Source: Nocardioides panzhihuensis | Lineage (GTDB): Bacteria > Actinomycetota > Actinomycetes > Propionibacteriales > Nocardioidaceae | NCBI RefSeq assembly: GCF_013408335.1 | Contig: NZ_JACBZR010000001.1 | Span: 4,069,501-4,133,500 of the forward strand | DNA length: 64,000 nt | Reading direction: 5' to 3' | Part shown: positions 58,404-61,021 of the stretch, piece after piece | Layout of the letters: each line of letters begins with the position of its first letter | Numbering within the stretch: position 1 is the stretch's first letter | Program-made: the position numbers and the translations under genes | The notes under the pieces: model-generated | Told to the model about the DNA's origin: nothing | The model's input: the letters and a program-made list of their open reading frames with translations, nothing else | Database searches by the model: none

Positions 58404-58550
58404 TTAGGGACGGCGGGTGAACCGAACGGTGCCGTCGGGTAGCCGCTCATGAACATAGGCAGGGTTGTGCGCCAGACGGTGATGATGCGGGCAGAGCAGG
58501 ACTCCGTCTTTCAGGTTCGTTCTTCCGCCGACTGCCCACGGGTCGAGATG
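58404..58550 (-). pseudogene. 3' fragment of DUF222-HNH gene, beyond the IS110 insertion
   Basis: Reading the minus strand from 58550 to the TAA at 58404-58406 gives a 48-residue HNH nuclease end: HLDPWAVGGRTNLKDGVLLC followed by PHHHRLAHNPAY. This is the missing C-terminus of the DUF222 protein encoded at 59867-61021. It has no start of its own and is presumably not expressed. Confidence 0.85.
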
Positions 58551-58566
58551 GATGCTCCTATGCATG

Positions 58567-59652
58567 TCAAGCGGCGGGTTCGTGCTCTGCGGCTGGTTTG
58601 TTGAGGTCTGTCAGGAGAGCGCGGTAGAGCTCGCGGACGGCCGCGCGCTTGAGGCATCGGATGATCTCGCTTTTGGTCTTTCCTTCGGCGGTGCGGCGGG
58701 TGACGTAGGCCTTGGTGGGTTCGTGCCATCGGAGCCGGTTGATGATGATCATGTGAATCGCGGAGTTGGCTCTCCGGTCGCCGCCGCGGTGGAGTCGATG
58801 CCGGGTTGTGTTGCCGCTGCTGGCTGGGATCGGGGCGACACCGCAGAGGCGTGCGAGTGAGGCCTCGGTTGAGATCCTGTCGCGGTTCTCTCCTGCGGTG
58901 GTCAGGAGTTGCGCAGCTGCTTCAGGTCCGGCGCCGAAGACCTGGAGCAGGGCGGGCGCTGCGTGTTGAACGAGTTCTGTGAGTTGCTGGTTGGCTTCCT
59001 CGATCTCTTCATCGAGAGCTTGAACGCGCCGTGCGAGTCGGCGCAGCATCGTCTTGGCGATGACTGTCAGCTCCCCGGACTGGGTTGAGGTCGTTGGTCG
59101 CAGGCGTAAGCAGCGGGCAACCAGTGCGGCGCGGTTGAGCCCTCGCAGCTGTTCGCGCAGTGGTTCGGGAGCGGAGTAGATCAGGCCGTGCATCTGGTTG
59201 ATCGCGGCCTTGCGTGCTTTCGAGGCGCTGCGCCTGGTGGTTTGGATCATTCGGATCGCTTCTACGTTCCCGTTGCGTGTCTTGGGGACCGTGGTGGCCA
59301 TGCCGGCCAGCACGGCGCGCGCAGCATTGATCGCGTCTAGAGGGTCCGACTTGCCCTGCAGATACCGGGCCTGACGGTTCGCGCGGACGACCTCGATGAC
59401 GACCACGTCGCGGCTGGTGAGGTACCGGGTGAGCCCTGCTCCGTAAGACCCGGTTCCCTCGACCCCGACCGCTTCGACCCTCCCGTACCGCTGCAGCCAC
59501 TTGAGGGCTTGGGCGTAGCCCTTCGCAGTTGCTGGGAACTCGCTGTCGCCCAGCAACTTCCCTGTTCGCGCGTCGAGCGCAGCGCAGTGGTGAGTGGCGC
59601 CGTGGGTATCGACGCCGCCGATCACCTCGCGATCCTCGCTTCGATTCGTCAT
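58567..59652 (-). CDS. IS110-family DEDD transposase
   Basis: 361-aa recombinase. The N-terminal RuvC-like DEDD domain has VIGGVDTHGATHHCAALD (Asp15), VEGTGSYGAGL (Glu), and KSDPLDAINAARAVL (two Asp). A coiled linker (ALDEEIEEANQQLTELV) leads to the C-terminal Tnp domain with GPEAAAQLLTTAGEN, LCGVAPIPASSGNTTRH, bearing the candidate catalytic Ser, and RRANSAIHMIIINRLR. Start ATG 59652. All catalytic motifs look intact, so the element may be active. Such enzymes are guided by a bridge RNA made from the element's leader. Confidence 0.93.
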   Translation of the reverse strand: MTNRSEDREVIGGVDTHGATHHCAALDARTGKLLGDSEFPATAKGYAQALKWLQRYGRVEAVGVEGTGSYGAGLTRYLTSRDVVVIEVVRANRQARYLQGKSDPLDAINAARAVLAGMATTVPKTRNGNVEAIRMIQTTRRSASKARKAAINQMHGLIYSAPEPLREQLRGLNRAALVARCLRLRPTTSTQSGELTVIAKTMLRRLARRVQALDEEIEEANQQLTELVQHAAPALLQVFGAGPEAAAQLLTTAGENRDRISTEASLARLCGVAPIPASSGNTTRHRLHRGGDRRANSAIHMIIINRLRWHEPTKAYVTRRTAEGKTKSEIIRCLKRAAVRELYRALLTDLNKPAAEHEPAA

Positions 59653-59689
59653 GCTGGTGATGCCGTCCTCTCCTCGTCGGGTGGATGGA

Positions 59690-59781
59690 CAGACCACCGG
59701 CATCGCCAGGGCGGACAACACAGAGATGGGCGTGTTCCTAGCAGGCTCCTATCAAGTCACGCCCAGCGTGCCGGTGGTCTG
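59690..59781 (-). ncRNA. Candidate bridge RNA (loop region) of the IS110 element
   Basis: In the minus-strand leader the arms CAGACCACCGG and CCGGTGGTCTG (59771-59781 and 59690-59700) form a perfect 11-bp stem. Inside it GGGCGTG/CACGCCC (59758-59764 / 59728-59734) forms a second stem whose 5' strand loop includes ATAGGAGC, identical to the element's right end (58554-58561). Just beyond its 3' strand lies TCTCTG, complementary to CAGAGA at the left end. These fit a donor-binding loop. The full RNA probably starts nearer the left end. Confidence 0.5.
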
Positions 59782-59866
59782 ACAGCACGCCACCTCGTGC
59801 AACGGTCGACCAATCCATTTCAGGACAGGCGCGCTTCATGCTCGCGCCGTCAATGAGCGCTCAGAG

Positions 59867-61021
59867 TCAGGCCGCCACACGAGATGACGCACCGACATCC
59901 TCTCTGTGGGCGTCGCACCATTCCGGTGGCATGTCGCAGCCTTCGGCTTGGCAGCACTTCTGCTGCAACCGGAGTGCTTTGCGTTGGATCGGCACGAAGA
60001 ACCTGCTGGCCCGGCCGGCGTCAAGGACTTCGCTGTCGCCGCCGAGGACCCAGGGGATGATGGTGGCGTTGCACGCCATCCGCCGGGCCTCAGCAGCGGT
60101 GATGGTGGTCCCGTTGGTCTCGTCGTAGCCGAGGGTCGCGGTGCCGAGCTCTTTGCGGAGCTCCTCGAGCGAGATCACCACATTCACGACCGTGGCGTCG
60201 CCACCGTGTCGGGGCAGCACATTCGGGTCGATGGTCTCGATCAGGCGGGCGAAGCCTTGTCCCATCATCCGCTCCCACGGCGGGAGCGGGGCGCCTTTGT
60301 CGACCAGCTGCTGCTTGCGGGGTTGGGCGTAGGCCTCGACCAGCCGTTTGAAGCGCATCCCGATCGAAACAGGGAGGACACCGTCGAAGCCGATGGTGCC
60401 GTCGTGGTTGTCCCAGACCCGCAGGGCGGTCTTCTGCTGGGCGCGTTCCTCTTCAGCCAACAACGCTTTGGCTTCGGCTGCCTCGAACCGGGCGGGGTCG
60501 ACCTCGAGCAGGATCCGTCTACCGACGACCCGCAGTTCCTTGGCCGTGAACTGGGTGGCGTACTCGACCAGGAGCTTCTCAGCGAGAACGAGGTCCTCGA
60601 CGGTGGCGGCCGGGTCGGTCTCGACCTTGTCGAGGGCCTTGGTGATCACTCGGGCCTTCGCCTCGGAGACGACGCCCTCAGCGAGGCCGGCAGAAACCAG
60701 CTCGTATCTGGCCACCGAGGTGGCGAGCTTGATCTGCGACCGCGCGGCACCTTTGTCGACGAGCAGCTCGGCACGCATCCAGGCGGACGCGTCCTTGTCT
60801 CCGGTCTCTGCGGCGATATCACCTGAGACAGCCAGCACCCGCAGCGTCAACGCCGCTTGTTGGGCTTGGAGCTTCTCCACCTTCGCCAGGAAGTCCTCCT
60901 TCTGACTAGTCCGCCAGTAGGTCGGGTCCATGGCAAGGAGCTCTTCAAGAGAGGTCTCGATGGCAGCAAGAGCCGACTCGATGACGTCGGCGGGGTTGAT
61001 GCCCCAGTGGTCGATGCTCAT
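59867..61021 (-). pseudogene. DUF222-HNH endonuclease gene interrupted by IS110 (5' part)
   Basis: Actinobacterial DUF222 (13E12 repeat-type) protein. The ATG at 61021 follows GGGAGG. The DUF222 region runs through ATSVARYELVSAGLAEGVVSE and VLPVSIGMRFKRLVEAYA. The nuclease part begins LRLQQKCCQAEGCDMPPEWC-DAH and is then cut by the insertion; the last 13 codons and the stop are insertion-derived. The HNH catalytic core lies on the far side (58404-58550). The fragment may still be translated but cannot be a nuclease. Confidence 0.88.

Follow-up and report, generated by a model that had tools for sequence, protein, structure and literature searches.

The window, the whole 64,000-nucleotide stretch of DNA analysed here, contains an insertion sequence of the IS110 group that splits a DUF222/HNH-type gene into two pieces (Table 1). 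Genes of this type also go by the name 13E12, and no paper in the literature that we searched names both IS110 and 13E12.

Table 1. Features of the element and of the interrupted gene, in order along the minus strand
Feature	Position	Strand	Basis
Host gene, N-terminal piece, ends in WCDAH	59906..61021 (61030 at widest)	-	Identity to siblings
IS110-group element, 1,355 bp	58551..59905	-	Seven identical copies; joined flanks equal the frame of the empty sibling
Leader, predicted source of the bridge RNA	59653..59905	-	Fold energy; layout common to relatives
5' arm of target-loop stem	59872..59892	-	Fold; own versus swapped arms in 36 parsed relatives
Left target guide AGCGCTCAT (predicted)	59853..59861	-	Homologous place to left target guides that covary with targets
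Hairpin between the two target guides	59828..59848	-	Fold
Right target guide AAATG (predicted); GA (59814-59815), the complement of donor core TC, comes next	59816..59820	-	Family test
3' arm of target-loop stem	59785..59805	-	Fold; arm-swap test
5' arm of donor-loop stem	59760..59781	-	Fold; arm-swap test
Left donor guide ATAGGAGC	59745..59752	-	Identical to right end 58554-58561
String ACGCCCATCTC of the original prediction; not a target guide in the present reading	59723..59733	-	
Right donor guide TCTCT; the next two letters, GT (59720-59721), complement target core AC	59722..59726	-	Complement of left end AGAGA
3' arm of donor-loop stem	59690..59713	-	Fold; arm-swap test
Recombinase, 361 aa, ATG start at 59652	58567..59652	-	Pfam and NCBIfam models
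Right end after the recombinase stop, terminating in ATAGGAGCATC with donor core TC	58551..58566	-	
Host gene, C-terminal piece, begins HLDPW	58404..58550	-	48 codons, then TAA

The recombinase scores above the cutoffs of both Pfam DEDD_Tnp_IS110 and Transposase_20, and it reaches 181.4 bits against NCBIfam NF033542 (cutoff, 140). Its match to the IS621 and ISCro4 chains is weak (E 7e-07 for IS621); the EGTG, KSDPLDA and SSG stretches align with IS621, and the first D (GVDTH) was placed by eye. A DEDD recombinase with a Transposase_20 domain and precise insertion at the same codon junction in 7/7 copies are features of the IS110 family. The layout, with an RNA-holding left non-coding end of 253 nt (the leader), the 361-aa recombinase and a right end of 16 nt, has the end asymmetry of the IS110 group, not of IS1111. 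Among the matches listed (8,000 scored candidates), the nearest protein besides the element's own comes from a metagenome contig of 1.4 kb and is 95% identical. At E <= 1e-112, matches among 394 genomes searched across the class were confined to the window's own genome, and the closest full-length relative found in a genome (L091, 65% identical) lies at a different site. The same genome encodes two more IS110-type recombinases, which are 38% identical (G000:C1:1011814-1012833 and 4481936-4482955).

A whole-genome search found seven full copies of the element and one split match, which is an unoccupied sibling site. The copies show 0 differences over 1,355 bp in all 21 pairs, whereas their right flanks diverge by up to 27% within the first 60 bp. 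Each of the seven separates the His pair of DAH^H, and together they occupy seven of the eight members of one DUF222/HNH-type subfamily; the eighth member is the empty site. Joined without loss, the flanks give a 425-codon open frame in every copy, the same as in the empty sibling, with the motif restored as WCDAHHLDPW in five copies and WCDAHHLEPW in two. Since the copies are identical, the flanks diverged and the frame restored, the insertion between the two His codons was precise and recent; it left no dinucleotide duplication and at most one shared base. The comparison of copies and the flank joins thus bear out the element boundaries as originally drawn. The original prediction had also joined the flanks over a CA and equated the product, ACGCCCATCTC, with the host sequence before insertion. 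This string is absent at the empty site: the window flanks joined without loss read GACGCCCAC-CATCTCGAC and the intact sibling reads GATGCCCAC-CACCTCGAC. The lossless join yields the 425-codon frame in all seven copies, so the earlier join drops one His codon.

The host family has 23 matches in the genome; two of them belong to one gene, which brings the count of loci to 22. Eight loci are 87-100% identical to the window's gene (seven of them occupied), and the remaining 14 (eight at 58-59% and six at 42-43%) have an uninterrupted AHH motif. Insertion sites in the paralogues were read by alignment; a motif-based reading had yielded just one. The N-terminal piece in the window is 93-100% identical to six other occupied or empty siblings and 87% identical to one. 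The intact sibling L196 scores 55 bits with DUF222 (cutoff, 24.4) and 19.4 bits with HNH, which is under the cutoff of 21.4. Pfam scans of the window's N-terminal piece gave no match, although L196, 93% identical to it, matches DUF222; this is perhaps a search-filter effect. Two of the copies, L001 and L002, have an identical left flank over 400 bp and right flanks that differ at 27% of the first 60 bp, a pattern that points to recombination between DUF222 paralogues.

The leader folds at -123.1 kcal/mol (z -4.18), and none of 200 dinucleotide shuffles folds as well. It forms two stem-closed loops, of which the upstream one is the target loop and the downstream one the donor loop, and the layout is common to relatives: the left target guide (LTG), a hairpin and the right target guide (RTG) in the first loop, and the left and right donor guides (LDG and RDG) in the second. 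An RNAalifold consensus of 43 donor loops gave nearly no structure (-0.83), and we therefore compared the stem arms of each relative with arms swapped between relatives. Own arms pair better for both the donor loop (-36.5 versus -30.2 in 43 relatives) and the target loop (-37.4 versus -22.4 in the 36 of 43 relatives with a parsable stem), with 0/2000 shuffles as low in either case. An Rfam scan returned two matches, both below threshold. The original prediction had described an 11-bp closing stem around an inner 7-bp stem. A long closing stem is indeed present, but it has 13 perfect pairs and is extended further in the minimum-free-energy fold. In the window alone, TGGGCGTG and CACGCCCA, the arms of the inner stem, form a strong local helix (duplex -14.8 versus -9.5 for a rival stem), yet the inner stem is not conserved: across 43 distinct relatives own pairs score -5.72 versus -6.18 for swapped ones, and 1899/2000 shuffles are as good or better. 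The rival stem, in which that 5' arm pairs with bases on the 3' side of the RDG, scores -6.34 versus -5.59 (6/2000 shuffles), and it is the one used in the minimum-free-energy fold of the window.

Relatives were collected from overlapping sets of genomes: 215 of the window's genus and 341 of its family, together with 346 of the genus and 397 of the order of a Mycolicibacterium hit. A scan of genome contigs gave four loci, three of them contig-end fragments of one genome. In total, 179 loci had a recombinase match and 122 of these a donor-loop motif, of which five repeated the window's copies. A left end was obtained for 106 of the other 117; 80 met the selection rule (an exact 5-nt RDG complement, 118-150 nt from the LDG), and 43 of these are distinct. 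Because the rule itself uses the RDG, agreement of this guide was judged on multicopy groups only. The search patterns demanded TGAC before the LDG, [T/C]GTC after the RDG, and G as the first letter after the RDG; the finding of TGAC...GTC in 43/43 elements is therefore no evidence. Several wrong left ends (e.g., L055, L056 and L059) dropped out, whereas that of L140 was retained and lowers the score. Among the 43 elements, seven have no parsable target-loop stem and eight no usable right flank.

The original prediction had read this locus as an IS110 element with a bridge RNA; this reading is supported, and so are both of its donor guides. The 8-mer ATAGGAGC is present both in the leader and in the right end, and TCTCTG in the leader is complementary to CAGAGA at the left end, so that both guides of the donor loop match the element's own ends. 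In 49/51 distinct elements the LDG 8-mer equals the left-donor 8-mer, over four variants (ATAGGAGC in 42, ATAGGGGC in 3, ACAGGAGC in 2 and ATAGGACC in 2), a count in which the search patterns had fixed some of the letters. The RDG exactly complements the left end in six of seven multicopy groups, whose left ends were set by eye from the divergence of copies; the exact pairs are AGAGA/TCTCT, TGCGA/TCGCA, AGTGA/TCACT (two groups) and TGTGA/TCACA (two groups), and G147 (AGGGA/TCGCT) has one mismatch. The original prediction had named related copies with altered ends but unaltered loops as its refutation. Looked for among these relatives, such a mismatch does not appear in the donor guides save for the two elements of 51 for the LDG and G147 for the RDG.

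The target guides were identified through the relatives. With the left end set from the donor guide alone, the left target matches the target loop at 7.60 of nine positions, compared with 5.98 +- 0.12 after shuffling (43 distinct elements, 0/5000). The signal persists in a thinned set of 15 targets that mutually differ at four or more positions (7.27 versus 5.76 +- 0.22, 0/5000) and when the core letters are left out (5.95/7 versus 4.83 +- 0.10). When the LTG was placed by its conserved flanks, 9/9 letters matched in 13 of the 43 elements, eight in 13, seven in seven, six in three, five in four and four in three. For the RTG, the family test gave 3.49/5 versus 2.33 +- 0.17 (35 elements, G.U counted, 0/5000); candidates were required to be followed by GA, and 34/35 elements had at least one. 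An excess of G.U among the differences between guide and target is weak (19/67 versus 12.8 expected). Our first guess for the RTG of the window, CGAGGTGG, pairs well with the target; however, it lies inside the 3' arm of the target-loop stem, and in relatives the RTG stands before GA.

The match of target loop to target is thus a family-wide one, and it is weak in the window copy alone. The window LTG has 5/9 letters identical to its own site, plus wobble pairs; two G.U pairs are needed to bring its core-proximal pairing to 7/7, and at four other leader positions the pairing with one of the element's sites is equally good. The RTG pairs at 4/5 positions with CATCT or at 3/5 with CACCT. Taken alone, the window's own target guide would not convince; its assignment draws on its homologous position and on L092. 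This relative, in genome G297, has a 63% identical recombinase, the same right-end 14-mer and the same RDG TCTCT, and its insertion site, WCQAH^H in a DUF222 protein, is the same codon junction. Its LTG shares GCTCAT with that of the present element; unlike the latter, it reads a CAA codon, and the LTG place pairs 9/9 (with two G.U) and the RTG 5/5. A search of the element's own genome with the CGCYCAYCAYYT pattern found 23 places versus 21 for the reversed control, which is no excess, and none of the 23 lies at a host-family gene.

Among the 15 empty genes of the host family, the paralogues of the 58-59% group pair with the guides as well as the occupied L005 and L007 do. On these pairings, the guide match fails to explain why only one subfamily is occupied; tolerance of insertions, an additional specificity or recombination between close paralogues may play a part. 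A single entry into the subfamily, followed by spread among close paralogues through homologous recombination or gene conversion, would account for the confinement of the element to genes that are 87-100% identical, and the 400-bp left flank common to L001 and L002 fits such a history. However, next to the element the occupied copies are no more alike mutually than to the empty sibling, the right flanks of most copies differ within the first 3-6 bases, and in other lineages multicopy insertion is seen at unrelated sites that have only the guide match in common. We therefore regard this alternative as rather unlikely.

The original prediction had placed the target guide in the donor loop, beside the RDG, with core CA. 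The first seven letters of ACGCCCATCTC, ACGCCCA, do equal the window's left target exactly, compared with at most five letters for the other 42 targets, and L092, at the same site, also has a seven-letter match there (CAAGCCC). Yet the equivalent stretch carries no family signal: over 43 relatives, the longest common substring is 3.98 versus 3.85 +- 0.12, and 873/5000 shuffles are as good. The targets of relatives match the separate upstream loop instead, the empty site is without the 11-letter string, and the ends show no CA. This layout is accordingly very unlikely, and the matches in the window (59727-59733) and L092 would be chance or a feature of the lineage.

The core dinucleotide, too, differs from the CA proposed originally. 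Core ends were readable in seven of nine multicopy groups inspected; in these, the right end finishes TC in 35/35 copies, with AC, AT or CC at the end of the left flank. For the window's element, all seven copies have TC at the right end and AC (four copies) or AT (three copies) at the left flank. Donor and target thus have unlike first core letters and can agree in the second alone, so that the core within the guide pairing is not common to both. The second RNA letter after the RDG, which the search pattern left free, is the complement of the target's first core letter in 40/43 distinct relatives (A with U in 31, C with G in 6 and T with A in 3; the three others pair G with U, non-complementary), though independent changes are few: five of six CC cases (L094-L100) belong to one lineage and L028 to another, and the three TC cases form one lineage. 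The GA that follows the RTG is the complement of donor TC. In the IS621 structures, strand exchange leaves RDG and RTG paired with the core that the other partner brings in (PMC11208158), and crosswise complementarity is what this handshake model leads one to expect when cores differ. The unshared core matters for whether the element is of the IS621 type; it says nothing against IS621-like working. In two of the three TC cases, L019 and L101, the left ends (...AAAGCATC) resemble donor sequence and shift the host frame by two bases. At positions where donor and target differ, the 80 rule-selected copies have donor-type C[A/G]TC in 2/80 left ends and keep it in 68/72 located right ends; half of the ends might have shown the other strand, because the IS621 structures imply an exchanged stretch of 4 nt (PMC11208158).

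The likeness to IS621, as described in PMC11208160 and PMC11208158, extends to a leader-encoded RNA with a target loop followed by a donor loop, a 9-letter LTG that includes the core, RTG and RDG on the 3' sides, a junction promoter, and a long left and short right non-coding end. The same sources give IS621 the core CT in both donor and target and place it in REP elements, whereas the present element has donor TC and target AC or AT and lies in codons of a protein family. With ISEc21 (PMC11187229), it has in common an upstream non-coding region, no duplication of target bases, a promoter formed in the circle, and a catalytic-codon target, which is a transposase gene for ISEc21 and a DUF222/HNH gene here. 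Joining the ends would place TTGACA in the right end 17 bp from GAGGAT in the left end. Such a promoter (a TTGAC-type -35 and a [G/A]A...T -10, 17 or 18 bp apart) was found in 34/36 distinct relatives, taking the best of spacings 16-19; junction promoters are described for IS621 (PMC11208160, PMC11208158) and ISEc21 (PMC11187229).

The precise insertion, the two-loop leader RNA, and the covariation of guides with ends and targets across relatives are established at the level of sequence comparison. Assignment to the IS110 group with a bridge RNA is well supported, and the mechanism appears to be of a known kind; the interest lies in the choice of target. We consider it very probable that this insertion sequence of the IS110 group has moved recently and works with a bridge RNA whose target guide reads the A-H^H codons of the DUF222/HNH-type family. 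By analogy with the work on IS621 and ISEc21, it would excise as a circle, and a promoter across the joined ends would drive transcription of the leader as bridge RNA; the top strands would be cut just 3' of the core, exchanged and resealed. The target guide would read the codons around A-H^H, so each insertion would split the catalytic motif of one paralogue. The element is probably active. The imperfect guide match of the window copy could instead mean that it is now immobile with decaying guides, but seven copies without a difference and an intact recombinase frame, ends and junction promoter make this very unlikely. That the leader only regulates recombinase expression and guides nothing is the least credible reading: structured 5' leaders can regulate translation, but structure alone would not make the loops covary with targets and ends.

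A broader reading, which we hold tentatively and as possible at best, is that this bridge-RNA lineage is specialised on the catalytic codons of repeated nuclease-like genes. U at the codon third positions of the guide would let G.U pairs accept synonymous variants, and the differing first core letters would be reconciled only by crosswise (handshake) pairing. If so, an RNA guide would in effect direct this parasite to a protein motif, not to one DNA sequence. The actinobacterial family offers many natural guide-target pairs together with a difference between donor and target cores, which makes the handshake model testable from sequence and simple assays. For genome engineering, the cores that vary in nature hint at the letters that related enzymes can accept there, provided that the RNA is changed with them.

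The sites of relatives place this target choice in a wider setting. L091 is inserted elsewhere in a DUF222/HNH-type gene, at CGPD^N. In Mycolicibacterium sp. P1-18, three contig-end fragments with 79-81% identity over 53 residues are followed by HNH-like sequence (HTIPWPCGP...CRRHH after L050; the flanks of L048 and L049 start with a His codon). Eight relatives with other guides interrupt the catalytic region of integrase-core transposase genes, seven of them (L031, L067, L040, L081, L102, L103 and L145) at D^NA and one (L098) at V^ERFH, just before E. Of the relatives scanned, L031, L067, L081, L102, L103, L145, L098 and L019 have pieces that match Pfam rve models. ISEc21 targets the codons around the second D of IS3 transposases (PMC11187229). 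Given these sites and this precedent, the targeting of catalytic codons is a known habit of which DUF222/HNH is a further case. DUF222/HNH genes thus widen the range of catalytic codons targeted by such elements, which may therefore disarm families of nucleases and transposases. Many relatives insert after ...TGAC (L129, L131, L133, L138, L144, L149, L177-L179, L182, L184-L187 and others). The TGA ends an open frame of at least 60 codons in 24/29 copies, compared with 13/29 and 21/29 for the other frames, and insertion one base after stop codons is possible.
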